Origin: a virus
Reading direction: 5' to 3' (one strand)
DNA: 22,531 nt
IMG/VR virus record: IMGVR_UViG_3300007512_001961
Coordinates: 1 to 22,531 of that record
Part shown: positions 1,400 through 15,000 of the stretch, in pieces
Position numbering within the stretch: the first letter of the stretch is position 1
How the letters are laid out: the number at the start of each line of letters is the position of its first letter
The notes under the pieces: model-generated
The model's input: the letters and a program-made list of their open reading frames with translations, nothing else
Database searches by the model: none
What the model was told of the DNA's origin: nothing
Position numbers and translations under genes: made by a program

Positions 1400-1420
1400 A
1401 AAGATATATCATATATCTTT
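1400..1420. repeat. Perfect AT-rich inverted repeat, 10-bp arms, 1-nt centre
   Basis: AAAGATATAT at 1400-1409 and ATATATCTTT at 1411-1420 are exact reverse complements around a single base. The element overlaps the stop codon of the 5' nuclease gene (1419-1421) and lies about 34 nt before the clpX start. A one-base loop makes it a poor RNA hairpin, so a DNA-binding operator or an mRNA processing site are alternatives to a weak terminator. Function not established. Confidence 0.5.
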
Positions 1421-2387
1421 ATTCTTTTTCTCTTGCAATAATTCTTTTAAAGGCAACATATAAGTCTAGCCAACTAGTTTCTCCAATTCCATCTTCTAAC
1501 ATCATACCATCTGTGGAAGTTTTGTCAAACGTTAATTCAGTATTCTCGATAATGTGCTTGGTTTTTTGTTTATTCTGTATTGACATACTGGGACTGTACA
1601 GTTGCATCAATTTATAGTTTTCCCTTATGACGCTTTCTTCCTCTATAATATTTTGATATGCCTTTAAAGTGGATCCGGCGTTGGCACAATACTCCGTTAC
1701 TTCATCGATAGTATATGTCTTTTCTTCAGCTAAAAATGGCAATCTTTTTGCGATTGTAGGTAAGCCAATGCCCTTAACCCCTTCTAAGTTATCGCTTTTA
1801 TCTCCAACGATTGCTCTCGCCAAAGCAAAATTTGTTGGGTGAATCCCGAACTTTTCTACAATTATATTTTTATTCAACACTTCATGTTGAGTTGGGCGAT
1901 ATGCAATCGTCTCGTCATCAAGCAATTGAAAAAAGTCTTTATCACTCGAAACAATTACCTTTTGCCAGCCAGAAAAAGCTGGTGTCTGAGCCACAAAAGA
2001 AATGACATCATCAGCTTCCACTTCATCAAACATCAACTGCGTTACTGGAAAGTTGTTTAAATATTCAACTAACCGCAATTGCTGCCAAATTTTGTTCTGA
2101 AGCTCTTCTTCTTGAGTAAGATTTTTAATGTCGCGATTAAGCCGCAAGGGCTTGCGCCCCTCTTTGTAATTTTTATTAACTAATTTTCTTTTCCTGCTGC
2201 CGCCTTTGCCGTCCCAGCATATAACAACCTGATCGGGCTTAATCTCCCTACAAAGCTTTTGTAATATCTTAAGAAAACCAACGGTGCCACCAATAGGATC
2301 TCCGTTAATTGATAAAGTTGGATTAACTATATAAGCCCTTAAAAACTGATTAAGGGCGTCAATTATCATTACTCTTTTATTTTTCAT
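1419..2387 (-). CDS. 5'-3' exonuclease / flap nuclease (PolA 5' nuclease and T4 RNase H family)
   Basis: A 322-aa nuclease of the family that removes RNA primers and flaps during lagging-strand synthesis. The ordered metal-binding acidic residues are visible: Asp10 in MIIDALN, Asp59 in CWDG, the DEVEADD cluster at 121-127, SSDKD at 147-151, and GDKSDN at 195-200, followed by the helix-hairpin-helix GVKGIG used for DNA binding. Because the phage DNA polymerase at 9103-10293 lacks a 5' nuclease domain, this protein is the natural partner for Okazaki fragment maturation. The ATG at 2387 overlaps the thyX stop by 11 nt, indicating translational coupling. Confidence 0.9.
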   Translation of the reverse strand: MKNKRVMIIDALNQFLRAYIVNPTLSINGDPIGGTVGFLKILQKLCREIKPDQVVICWDGKGGSRKRKLVNKNYKEGRKPLRLNRDIKNLTQEEELQNKIWQQLRLVEYLNNFPVTQLMFDEVEADDVISFVAQTPAFSGWQKVIVSSDKDFFQLLDDETIAYRPTQHEVLNKNIIVEKFGIHPTNFALARAIVGDKSDNLEGVKGIGLPTIAKRLPFLAEEKTYTIDEVTEYCANAGSTLKAYQNIIEEESVIRENYKLMQLYSPSMSIQNKQKTKHIIENTELTFDKTSTDGMMLEDGIGETSWLDLYVAFKRIIAREKE

Positions 2388-3087
2388 TTTTCACTTCCAT
2401 GTATGACTCTATTGTAACAGGAAATAAATTTTTTGCAAGCACTAAACACGCTTTTGCAACTTCTTGAATTTCCCATTGAGCACCATCGTGTATCCTTAAG
2501 TCAATAAACTTGAGAAGATTATTTAAATTAACTGTCCCATAATACTCTGTATATAAATTTTGAGGCAACACTCCTCTTGCTTGTTCGCGACACACGCCGC
2601 TCTCAATCAGAGCCTCATAAAGCTCTAATGCCTCCCTGTGAAAATTCTTTATCTTTTTCGAAGCAAAATGGTGAATGTTTGTAACCCCTTTTGCTGCCGG
2701 AATAATCGGATCAATGGACTCAGACACCGATGCTTGCCTGTTGGATTCGCTCTGCCTTCGAAATGCTTTAGGCTCATAAAACTCTAAATTAAAATTAGTA
2801 TAGCGCCTAGATATTTCGTTATAACTCCAAGTCCTGTGCCTGTGGTGCTGAGAGCGGATAAACAACGGCACCTTGAACCTAAAAGTCATCGTGCAGTGTT
2901 CTAGCGTAGAGGTGTGTTTGTTCTTAATAAGATATTTAATTAACTTAATATCGTGTTCATTAAGATTTGATACGCACTTCCCGAAACTGACGCGAGCGCT
3001 ATTAACAACTGTAACATCAGAACCCATATGGGAAATATACTCAACAAAACCAATGCTATCTGAATATAGGTCAATTTTAGTTTTCAT
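2377..3087 (-). CDS. thyX: Flavin-dependent thymidylate synthase ThyX
   Basis: A 236-aa, complete ThyX, which methylates dUMP to dTMP using FAD, NADPH and methylenetetrahydrofolate. The signature RHRTWSYNEISRRY spans residues 83-96 and contains the RHRxxS motif with Ser88. It is preceded by KHTSTLEH (57-64), and the C-terminal region carries the expected LP-LYTEYYGTVNL and FIDLR--AQWEI segments. It would supply dTTP for phage DNA synthesis independently of host ThyA. It overlaps its neighbours on both sides by 11 nt (HNH gene upstream, 5' nuclease downstream), so it is embedded in a tight, probably coupled operon. Confidence 0.95.
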   Translation of the reverse strand: MKTKIDLYSDSIGFVEYISHMGSDVTVVNSARVSFGKCVSNLNEHDIKLIKYLIKNKHTSTLEHCTMTFRFKVPLFIRSQHHRHRTWSYNEISRRYTNFNLEFYEPKAFRRQSESNRQASVSESIDPIIPAAKGVTNIHHFASKKIKNFHREALELYEALIESGVCREQARGVLPQNLYTEYYGTVNLNNLLKFIDLRIHDGAQWEIQEVAKACLVLAKNLFPVTIESYMEVKNEK

Positions 3088-3652
3088 CCTTTGCCTTTTC
3101 TGGAAAGTTTAGATATGCAAACTCCCCATATAACTCTTTTGCCTTTTCATCGTAAGCCATGGCTGCTAACTCTGCAGTTTCGAAATAACCTAAGCTTATT
3201 TTGACTTTTCCGTTGCCACCGGGTGGGCCAATATAGGCCCAAAAAGGCTTACTGCATTTTTCTTTCGATTTCCAAACCCCTTTAAGTCCTGTGGCGCTAT
3301 CGCGGCGGGGTGGCTTGTTTGCACAATTTTGAGAGTGGGTACAAACTCTTAAATTTTGTTTTCTATTGTCTAGACGATCTCCATTAATATGATCCACGGA
3401 CATTCCGCGAGGCGCCTCCATAATTAATCTATGCATTAAAAGGTTTTTGCTATCTCCAAGCAAGCCGGGGTATTCTGTGTTAATGCTCTCAATTTGTTTT
3501 TCTGTCAGGCGCTTTTCTGCGTAAAAGCCACTAGCAGTCCAAGTAGCATACCATTTAGTTGGCCTATCTTTTTCATGCCAGTATAAAACTTTTTCATAAT
3601 CTTCATCATCTACCAGCGTCACTTGGTCTCTTGTTAAGTTAATTTTCTTCAT
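3077..3652 (-). CDS. HNH endonuclease with C-terminal AP2 DNA-binding domain
   Basis: A 191-aa protein of the free-standing homing endonuclease type. An HNH_3-like nuclease core lies at about 72-110 (His74, Asp87-His88, Asn90, Asn96 and Asn100 region; SVDHINGDRLDN visible), with Cys104 and Cys110. An AP2-type DNA-binding domain follows at about 122-184 (GLKGVW, the WAYI strand, then GYFETAELAAMAYDEKA and YLNFPE). The ATG at 3652 is preferred over GTG at 3655 because GAGGAG then sits at normal spacing. It overlaps the upstream membrane-protein gene by 14 nt and thyX by 11 nt, an unusually tight fit for a mobile gene. It probably cleaves related phage genomes near this locus; the target is unknown. 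Confidence 0.88.
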   Translation of the reverse strand: MKKINLTRDQVTLVDDEDYEKVLYWHEKDRPTKWYATWTASGFYAEKRLTEKQIESINTEYPGLLGDSKNLLMHRLIMEAPRGMSVDHINGDRLDNRKQNLRVCTHSQNCANKPPRRDSATGLKGVWKSKEKCSKPFWAYIGPPGGNGKVKISLGYFETAELAAMAYDEKAKELYGEFAYLNFPEKAKDEN

Positions 3653-4028
3653 CACTCTCCTCTTCTTTGTTGTTTGGGGTTATTTCGAATTTAGACCACC
3701 TTGGGCAGTCTTTTGGCTTTAGATTGTTGTAAACAAGGGAATAATCCGCCAGACACATAGTTGTGCATATGCAAGTTGCATATCGTGGCACAAATGATTC
3801 GCCACAGTCTATATCAATAGGAATTCCCTGCTGCCCATTATGACCACAAACCACCTCTGTGGTTTTACTTTGAATCTTAAGGCGCTCTCTTAAAGCTGTC
3901 TCTTTGTTTTTAAGCATTTGATTTTTGCGATGCAATAAATCAACTTGATTACCTAAGCTATACATTAGGTAAATTACGAAACAAGCAGAAAATACCACAA
4001 ACACATTCATTGCCATGCGAAACTTCAT
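3639..4028 (-). CDS. Small membrane-anchored Cys-rich protein, unknown function
   Basis: Not recognised. With the ATG at 4028 it is 129 aa. Residues 6-26 form one hydrophobic segment (NVFVVFSACFVIYLMYS), followed by a charged, probably coiled region to about 50, then a domain with six cysteines (61, 75, 86, 88, 92, 108) and an acidic tail. This suggests an N-terminal membrane anchor with an exported, possibly disulfide-bonded domain; a lipoprotein-type processing site is not evident. The frame extends to a TTG at 4052, but that lies upstream of the -10 element at 4036-4041, so 4028 (or ATG 4016) is more likely. It is the first gene after a good promoter and leads the HNH-thyX-nuclease-clpX cluster. 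Confidence 0.65.
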   Translation of the reverse strand: MKFRMAMNVFVVFSACFVIYLMYSLGNQVDLLHRKNQMLKNKETALRERLKIQSKTTEVVCGHNGQQGIPIDIDCGESFVPRYATCICTTMCLADYSLVYNNLKPKDCPRWSKFEITPNNKEEESDEEN

Positions 4029-4084: not shown

Positions 4085-5788
4085 TTAAATGCCGAAGCCG
4101 CTGTCTAGAATTTTAAGCTCACCTCGCGCGTTAACCCCTAAATTACCCGGCCTATAGTCCCACACCTCATAAACAGGCTTAAATTGACTTGTGCCTCTGG
4201 CAAAATCTCGGAGATTAGAAACAACCGGATCGGAGATTAAACTATTTATATGATCAACCACTCTCTCGTCATAAACAAGTCGGCGGCCGCTTCGAATATT
4301 AGGATGATAAAGTTCAGCAATTTTAAGATATGTTTTTATTTCAGGGCTCATTTCCAAATTGGAGTATACTCTTTGTTGGTGTGCGCTTAGATATATGTTG
4401 CGACTTAAGTCTTCAATCTCGTTCATTTTTGCAATCTTTTTCGATATGTTGCTTTTTGACAAAGGCTCGTTGAATTCCATAATTTTAGAAAAAACATCTA
4501 TAGTTTTAAATCTCCAGTTCCACGCCCTTTCGGGATCCCCTTGTGAATAAGACAACGAACCCTCTTTAAAATTAGGAAAATGTTTAAACATTTCAGACCA
4601 GTCCCGAAAAGGGGTGATCTTTTCTTGCACAATCCAATGGCCATCCGGGTGCATATCATAAACTCTTGCTGCCAATCCGCTTGGGTGGGTTTGGTATGCA
4701 GTCAGTGCTTCCATCTTGTTTTGTAACTCTGCATGGCCTGCATCCTCGGCAAAACCGGTTTTCTCTCCCGGGATTGCAACTTTTAAAACTTTATCTTCTA
4801 CGCCGGGAATATTATAAGCTCTCCTGAACGTTCCGCCGCCGATGGGCTGCCACCCATATACTGCGGGATCCGGCACAAAGCCCATATTATCATCTGTATC
4901 TCTGAGGCTTGTTCTGCCGCGCGGAAGTCTTTCCGGGATTCTTCTGTACATAACATCGGGATCTGGTCCGAAGTACTTTTGTTTATATGCTTTTAGTGTC
5001 GGATCCTCTACAGGTGTTTGCGTTGGTGCAGGTAAAGTCATTTGATCTAGTTCTGACTCAAAGTGTGAAAGGTCTTTAATTTTTTTAGTTTTTCTGCTCG
5101 ACGGAACCAAGTCAACATCATCAGCGGCTAGCCATGGCTGTTTCTCAGACATGTCCCTGGCCAGCTTATCAAGATCGGCCTCATCCGCAGCACTCAAGTT
5201 TGTTCCTGCGCGCACTTCACTGGCACTAGGTACTCCCGGAAGTGCTGGCATTGAAGGCCGTCTAACAAATGGCATTCGTGGGGCTGTTAATCTACGTATA
5301 ATAGTTGGAAAATTTGGGCCGCGGGGCACCGGGGGGCCTTCGTTCAAAAGTTTTTCATATTCTTCAGCGACAATCTCCTCCAGCGTAATTATTGGAGGTG
5401 TCCAATTGGCATCTTGTTCTTCTTGTTCTTCTTTTCGGCGGGCCCTTAGTTTTATTTTGAGTCGCGACTTTTTGCGTAACATCTTCTCTACATCTGAAGC
5501 CTTCTCAAGGCGATCTAGGGTCTTATGGCCGCCCGGTCCGGACACGGACTTGCGAGCAAAAGGGCCTGCAGGATAGGAGGGTCTTGTTGTTGGCGGCAAC
5601 TTATAAATAGGTTCGGTCGCTTCGTCAATTATTGCGCCTAGCTCTTCTTTTGTTAGTTCATAGTCAAGAGACTCATTGGCATTTGCATGGAGCGCTGCTA
5701 AATATTTTTTAACAGAGCCGTCTGTGCAGCCAACTTTTTTACCAGTGTCTTTTTTATAGACGCACTTTCCCTTGGTTTTATAAGGCAT
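4085..5788 (-). CDS. Protein with C-terminal kinase-like domain and short N-terminal Cys motif
   Basis: 567 aa, not assigned to a named family. Residues 5-36 form a compact basic module (KGKCVYKKDTGKKVGC, then KYLAALHANA) of a type I associate with marine phage proteins. Residues 37-310 are low-complexity, Pro- and charge-rich linker. From about 311 a protein-kinase-like fold is suggested: Gly-rich loop PIGGGTFRRAY (315-325), VLKVA with Lys336, Glu residues near 354-360 for an alpha-C role, a hinge-like IVQEKITPF (386-394), catalytic-loop-like WDYRPGNLG with Asp544 and Asn549, and LDSGFG (561-566) in place of DFG. The protein ends right after that motif. It could be a phosphotransferase or a binding-only pseudokinase. 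It starts 1 nt into the stop of the 75-aa gene, so translation is coupled. Confidence 0.6.
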   Translation of the reverse strand: MPYKTKGKCVYKKDTGKKVGCTDGSVKKYLAALHANANESLDYELTKEELGAIIDEATEPIYKLPPTTRPSYPAGPFARKSVSGPGGHKTLDRLEKASDVEKMLRKKSRLKIKLRARRKEEQEEQDANWTPPIITLEEIVAEEYEKLLNEGPPVPRGPNFPTIIRRLTAPRMPFVRRPSMPALPGVPSASEVRAGTNLSAADEADLDKLARDMSEKQPWLAADDVDLVPSSRKTKKIKDLSHFESELDQMTLPAPTQTPVEDPTLKAYKQKYFGPDPDVMYRRIPERLPRGRTSLRDTDDNMGFVPDPAVYGWQPIGGGTFRRAYNIPGVEDKVLKVAIPGEKTGFAEDAGHAELQNKMEALTAYQTHPSGLAARVYDMHPDGHWIVQEKITPFRDWSEMFKHFPNFKEGSLSYSQGDPERAWNWRFKTIDVFSKIMEFNEPLSKSNISKKIAKMNEIEDLSRNIYLSAHQQRVYSNLEMSPEIKTYLKIAELYHPNIRSGRRLVYDERVVDHINSLISDPVVSNLRDFARGTSQFKPVYEVWDYRPGNLGVNARGELKILDSGFGI

Positions 5789-6229: not shown

Positions 6230-7336
6230 CTATTCGTCTTGCTCATAAAATTCCGAAGCTTCGCCTGTTCTGCTATCGAACTTCATTATGATCTCTTCGT
6301 CCATAATCTTAAGCACTTGGCTACGAAACTTTTCATCCTGTAGTTTCTCTATCCACTTTGAAGCTTGAAACTTCTCACACGTGCCGTCTTCATAACAAAG
6401 CTCATACCATGCGCCACCTTGTTTTAGTTTGGAAGACCCTTTAATTGCATCCAACCAACTTTCTTCGTCTTGCACTCCAATTTCATCTCCCCAAAGGATC
6501 TTGAAATTGCATTGACGGCCTTGTGTTCCAAATCTAGATTTCTCAAGTTTTACCTTGACTTCAGAGCCGATTCTAAACCCTTTGTCATCCAAGACAAAAG
6601 AAGCCTTTGCTTTGCGCCCTGTGAGCCACACACGGAGAGAATAAGCATAAATCATAGCTTTGCCCCCCGGAGTCATATAAGGCGTTGTAAGAGCCTCTGA
6701 AGGGCTCCTAGTGATGTTCGTTTTAAGCTGGTTTAATACCAGAAATGTCGATTGGCTATTTGCAATCGGAACTGTAAGTTTTGACATTCCTTTTGCAAGG
6801 ATTCTTGCTTTAACTGCCATCGAAGAAAGAGGGTTAAAATCTCCTTCAACATCAGAAACGGCAGGCGTTAGTGCCAGTGAATCCCAGATAAAGAGCATTC
6901 TATTTTCATTAGCTCCCAAAAGTTCTTCAATGGTCTCCAAAACAAACTCTACAGACTGAGCCTGTACATATAATACATTGTCAACATTGCAACCTGCTTT
7001 GTTCAAAAAGCCCGGGTCAATTGCAGACTCTGAGTCAAAATAAACCACATCAATGCCCATCTTTTGAGCATTGGCAGCAATTTGTGCGGCCATATATGAT
7101 TTGCCCGTTGCCTCTAATCCGGCAATTTCTACAATTTTGCCCATGGGAATTCCAGCCAACTGTCCTCTACAAATAATACTGTCTAACCAACGAGAACCAG
7201 TAGATATCCACTCTTTTACAACTGTCGGACTGTCTTCGTTTAAGTTGTGCGCTACGTTTATTCCCGCCTTCTTGTTAATGAGGCTGCGCATATCGGCAAT
7301 AGAAAGCTTGCCAACTTTTTTCTTACTCTTTGCCAT
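6230..7336 (-). CDS. uvsX: UvsX/RecA-like recombinase
   Basis: 368-aa strand-exchange recombinase of the T4 UvsX / RecA type. Visible are the start of the ATPase core (STGSRWLDSIICRG, 45-58), Walker A GLEATGKS at 73-80, the catalytic Glu in YFDSES (Glu104), Walker B RMLFIWD at 146-152, a DNA-loop region with NQLKTNI and a Gly-rich TPYMTPGGKA segment typical of RecA loop 2, then a C-terminal domain with an acidic end (EFYEQDE). It coats ssDNA, pairs homologues and in T4-like phages primes recombination-dependent replication, working with the gp32-like SSB encoded immediately upstream. ATG at 7336 has AAGGA 8 nt upstream. A hairpin terminator lies between the two genes and may keep UvsX below SSB levels. 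Confidence 0.92.
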   Translation of the reverse strand: MAKSKKKVGKLSIADMRSLINKKAGINVAHNLNEDSPTVVKEWISTGSRWLDSIICRGQLAGIPMGKIVEIAGLEATGKSYMAAQIAANAQKMGIDVVYFDSESAIDPGFLNKAGCNVDNVLYVQAQSVEFVLETIEELLGANENRMLFIWDSLALTPAVSDVEGDFNPLSSMAVKARILAKGMSKLTVPIANSQSTFLVLNQLKTNITRSPSEALTTPYMTPGGKAMIYAYSLRVWLTGRKAKASFVLDDKGFRIGSEVKVKLEKSRFGTQGRQCNFKILWGDEIGVQDEESWLDAIKGSSKLKQGGAWYELCYEDGTCEKFQASKWIEKLQDEKFRSQVLKIMDEEIIMKFDSRTGEASEFYEQDE

Positions 7337-7408: not shown

Positions 7409-8158
7409 TCAACCAACAAGGTCAGCAAAAGCTTTATCTACACTAGTTGCAGCTTTTTCATCGTTGTTATACTTGACAGTCTCTGACGATCCCTCTTCCG
7501 GGTCATTTCCCAGAAGGAACTCATCAAGCATCGCTTGCACTTCTTGAAAGCTTTTTCGACTATTCTCAAAGAGAGCGTCGAAATCGGGGATGTTTTCAAG
7601 GTGCTCGCGGCACTTTTCCGGATCATCAGGACAAAGCGGGGAACTTCGTCGGCGGGGGGTGATGTTCGTTACTGGAAACGAGGCACCCGCGGGTTTTCCG
7701 TAAGTGATGGTCAAATCAGTTCCGGACTCAGGATCGGTGATATCACCGTATTCTGGGTTTAGCACAAGGTTGAGCAATGTTTCATACACTTGCTTGCCAA
7801 AGCCCCAAACACGCACACCTTGGTCTTCCTCTCCTCGTACCAAAACGGGAGCAAAGAAACGTTGGCGCGCAGAAAGCTTCTTGGCCATGCGCTTACTATC
7901 TTCTGTGCCTTCTTTCCAAAGTTGACTCACAAAAGAATCTAGAGGACAGTCTTCGCCAAAGTTTCGCTTTGGACTAAGAAATCCGGGATTGTCCCCAACA
8001 TTGTAATGGAACCAATAATCCTTAAAAGGATCTCCATCTGCAGTTGGCACAATACGAATTGTTTGTTCTCCGTCTTGTGGTCGCCAAAAACGATTGTTGC
8101 CGTTTTTGCTTTCTAGAGCCACCTTTCGGGCTCGCATTTTTTTAAGATCTAAAGTCAT
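7409..8158 (-). CDS. Single-stranded DNA-binding protein, T4 gp32-like
   Basis: 249 aa. The core matches the gp32-like OB-fold proteins of T4-related phages: RPQDGEQTIRIVPTADGDPF (26-45), the FHYNVGDNPGFLSPKRNFG stretch (50-68), ARQRFFAPVLVRGEEDQGVRVWGFG (97-121), LLNLVLNPEYGDITDPESGT and TYGKPAGASFP. It coats ssDNA and coordinates polymerase, helicase and UvsX. The C-terminus has an acidic, flexible region (DPEEGSSETV) and ends AFADLVG, the place where gp32 relatives contact partners. In the zinc region only Cys71 of the usual CPxC pair remains (CPLDSF), so a zinc site is doubtful. ATG at 8158 has AAGGAG 6 nt upstream, and a promoter precedes it. Confidence 0.88.
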   Translation of the reverse strand: MTLDLKKMRARKVALESKNGNNRFWRPQDGEQTIRIVPTADGDPFKDYWFHYNVGDNPGFLSPKRNFGEDCPLDSFVSQLWKEGTEDSKRMAKKLSARQRFFAPVLVRGEEDQGVRVWGFGKQVYETLLNLVLNPEYGDITDPESGTDLTITYGKPAGASFPVTNITPRRRSSPLCPDDPEKCREHLENIPDFDALFENSRKSFQEVQAMLDEFLLGNDPEEGSSETVKYNNDEKAATSVDKAFADLVG

Positions 8159-8211: not shown

Positions 8212-8240
8212 ATAGTATCAAACAATGAAATCAATGTCAA
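8212..8240 (-). promoter_or_regulatory. Sigma70-like promoter for SSB, TTGACA-17-TACTAT
   Basis: A perfect -35 TTGACA (8240-8235) and -10 TACTAT (8217-8212) are spaced by 17 nt on the minus strand. The -10 is preceded by TTTGA, as in the promoter at 4036-4064. The -35 overlaps the stop codon of the FtsZ-like gene. Transcription would begin near 8205, leaving about 45 nt of leader ending in an AAGGAG ribosome site. This gives the SSB gene its own promoter for host-type RNA polymerase, suggesting early or middle expression. Confidence 0.75.
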
Positions 8241-9088
8241 GCATTTTTTTCATTTTTTTCAATTAATGTGCTATTGGATATACAATAACCATAAGATTGC
8301 TCATATTTGGTTGAAAATATCCCATAACTCACCTTCATTTTATCATGTTCTCTGTTGCTTTTAACATAATTTTTGATCTTTTTCATAAGTGTCCCATCTG
8401 ATTCAAGAAAATGCTCTGGAATAGCATAATAATGCCTCTTTTCTCTCGGCATTGTAAAATCAAAAAATAGTTTTTCTTCTCCAGATTCAATATCAATCAG
8501 CCCAAGAGTAGACACTCTTGCTGTCTCTATATAATTTGCAAAAGTATTCATTATTGACTTGGAATGGTTAAAGACATTTATCATGTGAAAGGTAGAAACA
8601 ATCAATTCATTTAAATGTCTGAAATAGTCTTTAATTGGTATATCGCCAATAATTTCAGCTAGTTTTACATTATCAACAACATAAACACGCTCAAATAATG
8701 CTGATCTGGCGTATTCTTGAAGTACCCCAAACATCAGGTTTTCTTGTAAAAGTTTTTGTTCGTTTAGTAAGGTGCGATCTGGTTTTATATATAAAACACT
8801 TATGGTACAATCTTTATTCCTGAGTTGTTCAAGAATTCTCAAACTGGCGCCAGAAATATTGCCGCAACTTGTTATCAGCAAAACATGTTCGTTAACCTCT
8901 TTCAAAAACTCACCTATTTCATCTGCAGGTGTTAGCTCTTCGTATTTTTCGAAGCTGATCTGCTCAGGCACACTAAAACAGTTGTCTCCACTGATAGCTG
9001 TGTCGATCTTATATATATTATATTGAGGGTATTGCTTAAAAAGATTAGCAACGTTACACCCTGATTCCCCTAGTCCAATTATATTCAT
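8237..9088 (-). CDS. Divergent FtsZ/tubulin-superfamily protein
   Basis: 283 aa from ATG 9088, a choice that puts the first beta strand at the N-terminus as in FtsZ. A TTG at 9097 is the alternative. The FtsZ order is followed: MNIIGLGESGCNVANLF (1-17) matches the G-box strand-loop-helix; HVLLITSCGNISGAS (68-82) sits where FtsZ has GGGTGTG; then SVLYIKPD (97-104) for AVVTKPF; VYVVDNVKL (135-143) for the IPND-L base-binding loop; FRHLNELI (156-163) for helix H7; and MINVFNHSKSIM (169-180) where FtsZ has INxDFADxxxxM. The tubulin signature is thus degenerate and the catalytic Asp residues of the T7 loop are replaced. A filament or nucleotide-binding role in the infected cell is possible; GTPase activity is doubtful. 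It lies between polymerase and SSB genes. Confidence 0.7.
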   Translation of the reverse strand: MNIIGLGESGCNVANLFKQYPQYNIYKIDTAISGDNCFSVPEQISFEKYEELTPADEIGEFLKEVNEHVLLITSCGNISGASLRILEQLRNKDCTISVLYIKPDRTLLNEQKLLQENLMFGVLQEYARSALFERVYVVDNVKLAEIIGDIPIKDYFRHLNELIVSTFHMINVFNHSKSIMNTFANYIETARVSTLGLIDIESGEEKLFFDFTMPREKRHYYAIPEHFLESDGTLMKKIKNYVKSNREHDKMKVSYGIFSTKYEQSYGYCISNSTLIEKNEKNA

Positions 9089-9096
9089 CTTATCCA

Positions 9097-9102
9097 ATTA
9101 TA
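9097..9102 (-). promoter_or_regulatory. Extended -10 promoter candidate before the FtsZ-like gene
   Basis: A perfect TATAAT (9102-9097) is preceded by TTGA, giving the extended -10 form TGnTATAAT. No convincing -35 is seen. The element overlaps the polymerase stop codon and ends 8 nt before the ATG at 9088, the same geometry as the 4036 promoter, so transcripts would be leaderless or nearly so. Confidence 0.45.
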
Positions 9103-10301: not shown

Positions 10302-12050
10302 CTAGTATCCACCCCCAGATGAGCTAGGGTTGGTAGCTTCGGCTGGTAGGCCAGATGAACCAAGTAGTTTATGTTTGGTTTTTTTCTTTTTTTGCTCAAT
10401 TTCGTCTTTGTATATATTCTCATAACCAATGAGTCTTTTTTTAATTTCTTTATTAATATACCTGAAAGCGGTGTCCGTGTCAAGTATTTTAAAGTACCCA
10501 TATGCTTTTTTTAATACTCTAGAATATTTACCGGCAGACCACTTAATTTTATTTTCTAAGAGCCTGACATCTAAATAGAACTTTAACCAAAACATGTCTC
10601 CGTATTTTTCTTTGAAGGCTGTTTCTGCAATATCCTTTCTCTCGATCTCTTTCACCACTTTGGTACCAAAGCCTTTTTCTGAGCACCCTACGGTCTTTAT
10701 TATCTTTACAGTAGGGTTTGTCACTATATATGTTTTATAATAAAGGAGCATCGTTTCTTCCAAGCGCAGCATCTCTTCGTCGGAAATCTTTTCAAAAAAC
10801 TCTTCAAATATTGCATCCATTACAAAAACCCTTGAGTCGCACATTGTAGGTAAATTTTTTCCCTGTTCGGTGCAATTCTTGATTTTTCTAGTGTAAATTG
10901 GAATGGAATACTGGTTGAAAATTAGTTCAGTTATTGGATCGACCGACCCAGCCATTTTAATTGTTTCCCACTTATTACTGTGTTCTGCCTCAATAGCCTC
11001 TCTTTTTGCTTCGAAGCCCGTTTGTATGTCGTTAAGGACTTTGATCCCACCCTCCATCTGCGCAGATGGCATCTGCCATATATTATCAGTATAGCTGTTT
11101 AGTTTTTCGTTTGTGACTTCATCCAACACTTGGCCAACATTTTCCTTGCTACCAAATATTTTTTGCCACGTCGAATCTAAACGCTCCTTGTATACTTCTT
11201 CTGTTGCCTCTTCCAACAAGGGCCTTTCAAAGGCAATTCTAGCGTACTCACGCATCTTATGAGAAGTAAGATCTGCCACCAAGCGCCATGGGACGTTTCT
11301 ATCTAAAAAGAATCCGTGTTTTCTTGCGGCCAATTGAAAGAAACTAAAGTTTGGGTGATTAATAAACTTTTGCTTTTCTTTATCATCGTCATATTTTCCA
11401 TTATGAATTTCAATGCAAAGACCGGTGAACAACGGAGATAAATTATTAGAAACCACCAATCCGCTCATTGAAAGCGGGAAGAAAGGAATCGAATCCTTCA
11501 TAAAAATATTAAAGTATTCTATAAAATCAGATTCGTCAAATATTTTGTTTTGTAAAGGGTAAGCCCTAGCTAGCTGATCTCCCGACGCGATTTTTAAATA
11601 TTGCAGCGTGTATAAACCATAGTGTATTTGCCTATATTTTTTCCATGCTTTTTCTATATTATAATAACTCTTGTGGGGGTTACATTTTGCGATAATTCCG
11701 GAAGGCTTAATATACCCATTGTTTACATGTGCAGTGATATACAACTTTAAATCATCGTAAGCGTCTGCAACAAAATTTAATACTGAAAGTTCTTCAAGAT
11801 TGTTGTTTGGGCCAGTTGATAGTGTTCTAAGCATTTCTTCTTTTGGAAAAACGAACTCTTTATTCATATCAACGCGGCCATATAAAGGATTTTCATTAAT
11901 TAAATCAATGGGCTGGACAGGCCATGGCGATTTTCCATTCGGAAACACCTCGCCATAGTAAAACACCTTTTGATCAAAAAGACCAGCAGTGCTTGCCAGC
12001 GAGTTCTTTGCTTTTGCTATTTTCCCTTTTAAATCGTTTAAAGTTGTCAT
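10302..12050 (-). CDS. Large hypothetical protein, probably virion-associated (582 aa)
   Basis: Not recognised. The start is ATG at 12050, 2 nt after the stop of the 1066-aa gene (TAACAATG); an upstream frame extension to 12095 would overlap that gene and lacks a ribosome site. The N-terminal third is rich in aromatic residues (YYGEVFPNGKSPWPVQPIDL), the middle is mixed helical, residues about 290-400 are charged and probably coiled, and the C-terminus ends in a Lys-rich stretch followed by a Ser/Gly tail (SSGGGY). No catalytic motif or membrane segment is evident. Its tight coupling to the hub-like gene and distance from any enzyme motif argue for a structural or tail-assembly protein, but this is context only. 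Confidence 0.6.
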   Translation of the reverse strand: MTTLNDLKGKIAKAKNSLASTAGLFDQKVFYYGEVFPNGKSPWPVQPIDLINENPLYGRVDMNKEFVFPKEEMLRTLSTGPNNNLEELSVLNFVADAYDDLKLYITAHVNNGYIKPSGIIAKCNPHKSYYNIEKAWKKYRQIHYGLYTLQYLKIASGDQLARAYPLQNKIFDESDFIEYFNIFMKDSIPFFPLSMSGLVVSNNLSPLFTGLCIEIHNGKYDDDKEKQKFINHPNFSFFQLAARKHGFFLDRNVPWRLVADLTSHKMREYARIAFERPLLEEATEEVYKERLDSTWQKIFGSKENVGQVLDEVTNEKLNSYTDNIWQMPSAQMEGGIKVLNDIQTGFEAKREAIEAEHSNKWETIKMAGSVDPITELIFNQYSIPIYTRKIKNCTEQGKNLPTMCDSRVFVMDAIFEEFFEKISDEEMLRLEETMLLYYKTYIVTNPTVKIIKTVGCSEKGFGTKVVKEIERKDIAETAFKEKYGDMFWLKFYLDVRLLENKIKWSAGKYSRVLKKAYGYFKILDTDTAFRYINKEIKKRLIGYENIYKDEIEQKKKKTKHKLLGSSGLPAEATNPSSSGGGY

Positions 12051-12052
12051 TG

Positions 12053-15000
12053 TTAACCCATCATGTTGTCGTCGACAACGATGCCTTCTGTCCAACCGGC
12101 CTTTTTAATTAAGGTCTTTACTGCGTCGGTTGCGCCCATTATGTTCACTGCTGTTTTCACATTTTGTTTTTTGCCGCACTCGCCAAATGTAACCCATTTC
12201 GCAGTAATTGTCGTTTCGTGAAAAGTGTCTCCATGTAAAACGCTATGATCTACAGCGGTTATCAAATAAAAACCACCTATGCCCAACTCTTTCCACTGTT
12301 GATAGGAACCACCGCCAGTTCTTCTCGGATCAACAAATATCAGCATGCCTGGTTTAAATATGTTATTGCCAAACATCGTGACTTCAAAATCATAAACATC
12401 TCGCAATTGGGTTTCACCCTTTTTTCTCCGCATAGCATGAATTCGGGATTCTCTGAGCCATGGAATACTCAATCTTTTAAATCCGTAATCTTTAAATACG
12501 CCCGGCACTTTTCCTAATTCAAGATATTGAACTCCTTTTAGTACGTTATTCTTCTTAGCAGTAGGATCTAAGCGCGCAGGAACATAGTTGTGCACATATA
12601 TATACATATAATTATATTGTTGTTCTAAGGGGGTGTCTGCGGCAATGTCAACCATCCTGCTAAAGTCCAATTGTGATCCATATGGATGTTTTTTTACCCC
12701 TCCAACTCCAAAGCGCGTGTCCACTATTCTGTAATCCCACTTTTTTCCACTATCCCACAAATATGCGCTCGAACCTCCATCCGGAGGATACTTTGGCCCA
12801 AGCGGATAAAACGGAGGAATGTGCTTACCATTAACTTTTTTCATCTTTGAAGTAAATTGCAAAATTTTTACTGTTTCAGATCTAGAACCGGCTCCTTCCA
12901 AACATCGTTCTCCTAGGGCTTTTGTTATCAGTTTCTGAACCACATCTCTTATAAACTCACCCAAGAGATATTCCTCTCTGTCGGTTTGTATTACATTTTC
13001 AGCCCAAAACCCCATCAGCAGTTTTAAAGATATAGGTACTTGAGCCAAATTTATTTGCGTTATGTTATTGTTTGTGCCAGAATTCCAATCAATCAAAGGC
13101 CCGAACAACACACCCATTCGGCGCTCATAAAGACCTTCGCCTCTTTTATATGTTGGGCTGCTGCCGTTAAGAAGTGGATCCTGCATGGTTGCAAGATCTA
13201 TTGCCACATCAATCAAATCACCAAGAGTGGTGAAATATATATTTTTGTATTTTTGGCGACCACCAGCAAACTCTCCGGTGCTTACACCAGCAAGAGCATC
13301 CAAAGGGCCGTCCGAAGTAAGCTTTTGTTTCATTGCTTCCGACGCTTTGGTGATGGAATCTTCATCCATGTCGGTGGTCTCTTTTAACACCTTGGTATAA
13401 TTATTAATTATTTTTTTTAATGCACGTGAGCCGGGCGAGCCTGGATTGACCACTGTGACACTGTTATATGAAGCCTCATAAGGATTATTTGCCGGATCGG
13501 CGGCTGCAGCTTCAGCATCGTCTTTTGCGTGTTCTGCTGCAGCAGGCTCACTCCCTATCGCACCTCCGGAAGTCATTCCAACATCTTCTAAATGGGCTTT
13601 AAGGTGATATATCCTTGCTTTAGAATACAGTATCTGAAAAAGAAGCTTATATCGAGTCGACTTTAGGGCGCGTCTCTTAGACTTGACATACATGCGATAT
13701 CTTGTAACTAACTCGCGAAACACTACTATGGCATTCTCAGGAGTATTGCTGGGGTTTCCATCCGAGTCATATTTTAGACCACCCCATATAAACTTAGGTT
13801 GGCGACCTGCGGCCGCAGCGCGGCCTTGCTCTCTTTGTACTGCAGCAGAGTTAATAATAATATTATCGTAGCTCAAAGGCGTATCTTGATTGGGGCCGCG
13901 AAAAGGTAAATTAATCAGCCACGGACTCTTGTTGTGTTTTTGCAAAAGACTCCGGAGTTTGCTATAGCTTAAGGCTGCCTGATTGTCTGCATCTTTTCCG
14001 GCCAAAGACTCTTCTAATTTTAATCCCTGTGCCTCAACTTGTTTTAAGAGCCTTTCGGCCATGGCTAAATTTGCCAAATAAGAGCCCATGGCTTTAGATT
14101 CTCTATCCGGTACTTCAATGATGTTCAAATCTGGTGAGTTTATCACATCCTCAAGGTATGCTGAATATTTAAAATTGATTTGAAGGCCCGGGTCAGAAAC
14201 AGTGGCATCCGGGTATACCACGACATGCTCTTTAAATTGCAGCCTAAAAACCAAAGTTGAGGAGTGTAAAAAGTTTTTAAGCTCTTCTCTTTCTGTCTTT
14301 GAAAAACGCTGTCCATCACCCAACATGTCCACCAAGTCAAAATTAACTTGATTATCATACTTTAAAACAGCTTGAATTTCAAAAAACTCCTCATTCATCT
14401 TCATGCCCTCGTGTGCGATGGCTAGCCCTGAATAATCAGTGGGCTGTTCAGGGCAAGGCTCTGCCCCAACGTAGTCATATGAACTAATTTTTTTAGAGGT
14501 GGAAACTTTTTTGATTGGCCCAGTTTGATTGACATGCCTTTCGCTCCAAGAAATCAAATCTTTATAACTCCAATTATACTTTGTGGAATCTCCGGGCTTT
14601 TGATACTCAAAAACGTGGTTAAACAGCTGAAAAGAAGAAAAGTGTAAAGAAAAATTAAAATCATCAACAATGTTTACCTGAGCCGGATCTTCCCCTCTAA
14701 AAGTGATGTTAAGACTGCTTGGCATAACATTGCCTAATTCAGAGCGCGATCTAAATATCTCATCCATGGGGGAGAAGTGTTCCTTTTTTGAGCCGTTCTG
14801 ATCCCCTTGTAGTTTATCGCTTCCCAGAAGCGGTATCGACTCTCCTATTAACATTGGTATCTTAAGTGGAACACCAGGGAATTTTTTGCTAGTTTTCTTC
14901 CGCGGATAAAGTTTGTATAGTTGCAATTGGGGCTTGAGTTGCGAGAGTATTTCAGGGGTTAGTCTAAAAAACATTCCCGCGCCATCAACAGATTGGAATT

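Follow-up and report, generated by a model that had tools for sequence, protein, structure and literature searches.

Uncultured T4-like phages of a large group encode, between their genes for DNA polymerase and single-stranded DNA-binding protein, a protein with a predicted tubulin/FtsZ fold, here called TUB. The best explanation of our data, to which we assign a probability of about one-half, is that TUB forms a new family within the tubulin/FtsZ superfamily, belongs to the core of the phage replication module and, with a nucleotide bound, assists or scaffolds the replication complex. The DNA analyzed (the window) comprises the 22,531 nucleotides of IMG/VR record IMGVR_UViG_3300007512_001961, and the features discussed below are collected in Table 1. 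An alternative start of TUB, at a TTG at position 9097, is possible.

Table 1. TUB, its neighbors and its sequence elements in the window. Residue counts, here and in the text, refer to the 150 full-length TUB members left after sequences more than 80% identical had been dropped.
Feature	Coordinates	Strand	Evidence, conservation or remark
Tubulin/FtsZ-fold protein (TUB)	8237..9088	-	283 aa, stop included in coordinates; ATG at 9088; AlphaFold and Foldseek
Family-A DNA polymerase (PolA), 396 aa	9103..10293	-	PF00476, E 2.4e-16; adjoins TUB in relatives too
gp32-like single-stranded DNA-binding protein (SSB)	7409..8158	-	PF08804, E 6.9e-14; phrog_1192, E 2.5e-27
UvsX/RecA recombinase	6230..7336	-	PF00154, E 1.7e-35; phrog_97, E 6.6e-52
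5'-3' exonuclease (FEN)	1419..2387	-	PF02739, E 1.6e-27; last of the conserved order
T1 phosphate loop, residues 5-12, GLGESGCN	9053..9076	-	G5 148/150, G7 150/150, G10 147/150, C11 138/150
D29, end of strand S2 (KID)	9002..9004	-	Asp 139/150; aligns with IDT of PhuZ (profile alignment)
ExYE motif, residues 47-50, predicted helix after S2	8939..8950	-	position 50 acidic 150/150, E47 139/150, Y49 140/150
T4 loop, residues 74-80, SCGNISG, in place of GGGTGTG	8849..8869	-	G76 130/150, S79 125/150, G80 110/150
Family-specific invariant patch QEYARS (residues 124-129) at the end of helix H4	8702..8719	-	Q124 149/150, R128 150/150, S129 149/150
N140, guanine pocket	8669..8671	-	Asn 142/150; E. coli FtsZ N165 (IPN) by FtsZ alignment
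F156...N160, start of H7, aromatic and Asn of guanine pocket	8609..8623	-	N160 143/150; residue 156 Y/F/W/H 140/150
H168-N171, C-terminal half of H7	8576..8587	-	H168 147/150, N171 140/150
Residues 174-191, site of catalytic T7 loop and helix H8 in FtsZ/PhuZ	8516..8569	-	variable, no helix

The open reading frame pointed out by the first-pass annotation is a real gene. Querying IMG/VR first with TUB itself and afterwards with alignments raised the number of its relatives from 23 to 240 and then to at least 563 contigs. Their reading frames are intact, and TUB is under purifying selection, with dN/dS values of 0.13 to 0.18 against three near homologues. TUB diverges at the pace of PolA and faster than SSB or UvsX: median identity to the window is 44% for TUB and 46% for PolA, versus 63% for SSB and 75% for UvsX. 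No relative was found among named phages (tblastn in INPHARED, three diverged members as queries) or in GTDB genome contigs, and a search of the whole genome of Microcystis phage Mel-JY01, run without a positive control of its own, gave no TUB homologue; this phage is among the matches for both tail sheath and polymerase.

Twelve contigs of 95 to 190 kb each hold exactly one TUB. A T4-type portal is encoded in 12/12 of them and a DnaB-type helicase in 11/12, whereas a family-B polymerase was found in none; the contigs may be fragments, so such absences are weak evidence. The absence of a family-B polymerase is unusual among T4-like phages. It makes PolA the probable replicative polymerase, and taken with the portal and the helicase it marks the carriers as T4-related phages that seemingly replicate with a small PolA. 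PolA retains motif A (DFNA/DYNA) and the O-helix (RExAKxxxFAWLYNP). At 396 residues, the enzyme of the window is very small and has no obvious exonuclease domain, and it carries Phe at the site equivalent to E. coli 762.

We assigned the fold by structure prediction. An AlphaFold model of the window TUB, built with 15 family members, reached a pLDDT of 90.4 and a pTM of 0.89; for a relative that shares 33% identity with it, modeled with 70 homologues, the values were 96.1 and 0.92. Foldseek searches of the PDB returned FtsZ and TubZ as all 50 best matches of the first model (E 6.6e-13 to 1.3e-11) and FtsZ, TubZ and CetZ only as the 50 best of the second; over both sets, E-values ranged from 2e-13 to 3e-10 and TM scores (query) from 0.61 to 0.74. 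In the two models the N-terminal GTPase domain, helix H7 and the C-terminal domain are present in the order and fold of the superfamily. Among viral models (BFVD), Foldseek ranked highest an uncultured-phage protein of FtsZ type, together with PhuZ-type proteins. The first-pass annotation had called the gene FtsZ/tubulin-like, and the models agree; it had named a different fold or a better-matching nucleotide-binding family as grounds for refutation, and for both models the top 50 PDB matches contain neither.

Sequence comparison gave weaker signals. The window TUB matched nothing significant in Pfam, NCBIfam or PHROG, and the Pfam Tubulin profile (PF00091) matched 10 of 70 TUB members at a best E-value of 0.0056, short of its curated cut-off. 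Searches of PDB sequences with phmmer and hmmsearch reached FtsZ only at E ~0.4, which is no evidence taken alone, and profiles gave weak unrelated matches. In profile-profile comparison, TUB aligned with PhuZ at an E-value of 9.7e-5 and a probability of 58%, over 96 columns of the T1-T4 half. By the same yardstick, PhuZ and FtsZ, which are true homologues, scored 1.3e-5, and two unrelated controls 0.045 and 0.3. PhuZ thus appears nearest to TUB by profile comparison. The FtsZ profile scored weakly (E 0.012, probability 3.6%), which probably reflects the small depth of the FtsZ set; the PhuZ set did better. Because direct HMM membership was not significant, the assignment rests on the predicted structures and one profile comparison; the fold is well supported, and TUB almost certainly belongs to the tubulin/FtsZ superfamily.

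The GxGxxG glycine pattern of T1 is maintained across the 150 members, and both the GLGESGCN loop and the VVDN base loop occur as they had been quoted. The T4 loop had been described as reduced to CGNISGA; it is indeed diverged, but the loop proper is SCGNISG and follows a pattern in the family, mostly G-S/A/C-G-x-I/V-S-G (GxGx[IV]SG). The superfamily signature GGGTG[ST]G does not occur in TUB, the nearest approach among the 150 members being a single GGGTISG. The guanine pocket of the superfamily, with an Asn after S5 and an aromatic residue plus Asn/Asp in H7, is present. N140 and N160 are jointly Asn in 142/150 members, and N160 and F156 align with N186 and F182 of E. coli FtsZ. We take N140, N160 and F156 to be the counterparts of tubulin N206, N228 and Y224, which contact guanine. 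Some members carry a changed T1 loop, as in loci L016 (7989-8846, IISLGGVATR), L234 (6173-7006, IGLGSVGHK) and L232 (6557-7375); judged from these sequences, there are lineages in which nucleotide binding is perhaps altered or lost.

The site of the catalytic T7 loop differs from that of the known members. No conserved T7 acid pair is found across the 150 TUB members, the most acidic column of residues 174-191 being position 188 (acidic in 102/150), whereas the D-x-x-D pair is present in 10/10 aligned PhuZ sequences and in E. coli FtsZ. Helix H8 is absent from both models, in which H7 runs through a loop directly into the next strand. The first-pass annotation had taken INV--SIM/INVFNHS for a T7-like loop in which NVFNHS replaces the acids of NxDFAD. 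The acids are lost, but INVFNHS forms the last part of helix H7 and includes the conserved N171; the residues that stand in place of the acids lie at ~180-190 and are not conserved. The acidic position 188 and the always-acidic position 50 could have a catalytic role by some other route. The family has also acquired invariant residues of its own (Table 1), among them Y23 (150/150). As inferred from strand-helix topology, Y23 and Q124-S129 should lie on the side opposite the nucleotide, close to where H7 ends at its lower tip, the usual site of T7.

We then consider the genomic position of TUB, which had been taken to suggest a replication-linked role. Related loci, annotated with the genes of the window, show the order PolA, TUB, SSB, UvsX and then usually FEN, with short insertions between neighboring genes in some. 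TUB lies between PolA and SSB in 258/258 loci that hold both, some of which share a contig. To avoid bias, PolA and SSB searches served as independent starting points: TUB was present in 78/78 loci selected by PolA and in 65/70 selected by SSB, the remaining five being contigs that begin at SSB. These counts cover the best-scoring matches of each search, and remoter PolA or SSB relatives without TUB may exist. The linkage of TUB to PolA and SSB is thus well supported, and the polymerase-TUB-SSB order noted for the window holds in every testable relative. A place in the same operon is evidence of common regulation and selection; it does not show that the proteins touch each other.

From these features we infer that TUB very probably binds GTP or GDP, given that its phosphate loop and base pocket are kept. 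Since it has neither the T7 acids nor helix H8, it is unlikely to hydrolyze GTP in trans in the manner of FtsZ, TubZ and PhuZ. With the base pocket kept and the hydrolysis loop lost, TUB may be a case in which DNA replication has recruited a protein of tubulin type; most likely it would carry a bound nucleotide and serve as accessory or scaffold to the replication complex of PolA, SSB and UvsX. Docking would probably use the invariant surface formed by Y23, Q124, R128, S129 and H168, and TUB would rather not be a dynamic, force-making filament. A more specific version, which we advance tentatively, is that TUB gave up cytomotive polymerization and became an obligatory guanine-nucleotide-bound partner of polymerase and SSB, an invariant non-canonical face having replaced T7/H8.

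The main rival is that TUB builds a static filament by which the replication site is scaffolded or placed. TUB would then resemble PhuZ or TubZ in forming filaments for the positioning or partition of phage DNA during replication, with an altered longitudinal interface and no or slow turnover. The nearest profile match of TUB is PhuZ, its models contain the whole body of N-terminal domain, H7 and C-terminal domain, and characterized superfamily members form filaments (PMC2875224). PhuZ with a mutated T7 loop and no GTPase activity still polymerizes into static, non-dynamic filaments (PMC7950403), so loss of T7 alone does not exclude polymerization. However, TUB is without both T7 and H8, which make longitudinal contacts in PhuZ/FtsZ (PMC3678025), and without a long C-terminal tail. 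PhuZ is described as non-essential, and the Erwinia phage Asesino, although nucleus-forming, is reported to have none (PMC11724907). TUB, unlike PhuZ, is missing from no testable locus, and we regard the filament as rather unlikely.

It is possible, if improbable, that TUB mimics and caps host FtsZ and so blocks cell division, its place in an early replication operon serving timing only. Phages are known to target FtsZ, and TUB combines an FtsZ-like upper face, base pocket included, with an altered lower face, as a capping subunit would need. Host-takeover genes, however, are usually variable and often lost, whereas TUB was always found flanked by polymerase and SSB and matches the polymerase in conservation; capping fits this pattern less well. 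We give little credence to TUB as a GTP-binding nucleotide sensor that tunes dNTP or replication metabolism outside the replisome: the operon of the window does carry ThyX and FEN (Pfam search), but ThyX is not conserved beside TUB in related loci, and the position beside PolA and SSB is invariable. Least probable is that TUB belongs with the classical NAD-binding Rossmann proteins, or is some other nucleotide enzyme, and resembles tubulin superficially, for despite the GxGxxG N terminus and weak TrkA_N matches in 18/70 members (best E 8.6e-5), FtsZ, TubZ and CetZ alone make up the 50 best PDB matches of both models over the full length, C-terminal domain included, and both Asn residues of the tubulin base pocket are retained at the expected sites; an NAD-Rossmann identity was dismissed on the fold.

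TUB stands apart from its nearest known families, PhuZ, TubZ, FtsZ and FtsZl1/2, none of which combines its features. Like TUB, PhuZ of phiKZ-type jumbo phages is a phage tubulin of ~300 residues, and in the profile alignment the two share the GGxG, IDT and T4 block; PhuZ, however, has the T7 acid pair, H8 and a C-terminal tail, hydrolyzes GTP and occurs in jumbo phages (230-310 kb in nine extra records) rather than between PolA and SSB of T4-like phages. FtsZ provides the best PDB fold matches (E ~1e-12 to 1e-13), with the pocket Asn and aromatic residue at equivalent sites, but identity over the fold alignment is 10-16%, and TUB is without GGGTGTG, NxDFAD, H8 and a division context and ends ~10 residues past the last strand. 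TubZ, the plasmid and phage partition tubulin, is the second-best PDB fold match at 15-18% identity; it is longer and acts with TubR and a centromere (PMC7950403), whereas the immediate neighbors of TUB are PolA and SSB. FtsZl1 and FtsZl2 are diverged cellular families of the superfamily with extra C-terminal regions, FtsZl1 being without identifiable T6-H7 elements and found in a vWA/OmpA membrane context (Makarova and Koonin 2010, PMC2875224). TUB, by contrast, is viral and compact, has H7 and the C-terminal domain and sits in a replication context.

We found no description of the TUB family in searches of the open-access literature; one uncultured-phage protein in BFVD is already named FtsZ, so related annotations exist. 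TUB is apparently an undescribed and abundant viral family of the tubulin superfamily. The known phage tubulins, PhuZ and TubZ, are GTP-hydrolyzing filaments that move or partition DNA, and TUB keeps their fold and pocket without the hydrolysis loop. If TUB acts in the replisome, it would widen the known uses of the tubulin fold and provide a natural case in which nucleotide binding is separated from hydrolysis-driven dynamics.

Several other genes of the window, all on the minus strand, deserve mention. A core gene for a 597-aa protein without a family match (10302-12095) immediately precedes PolA in the majority of related loci. A 567-aa open reading frame (4085-5788) between the UvsX region and ThyX has no Pfam match and is retained in nearer relatives only. 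Between ThyX and a small open reading frame lies an HNH endonuclease gene (3077-3655) with a weak AP2-type match, homing-endonuclease-like and shared, among the annotated related loci, with L002 only. The same gene run as FEN and ThyX includes a phage-encoded, full-length ClpX with a zinc finger (104-1366; NCBIfam ClpX equivalog, 626.7 bits; Pfam zf-C4_ClpX), which recurs in just one of the annotated related loci, L002, the locus that has the same TUB sequence as the window.
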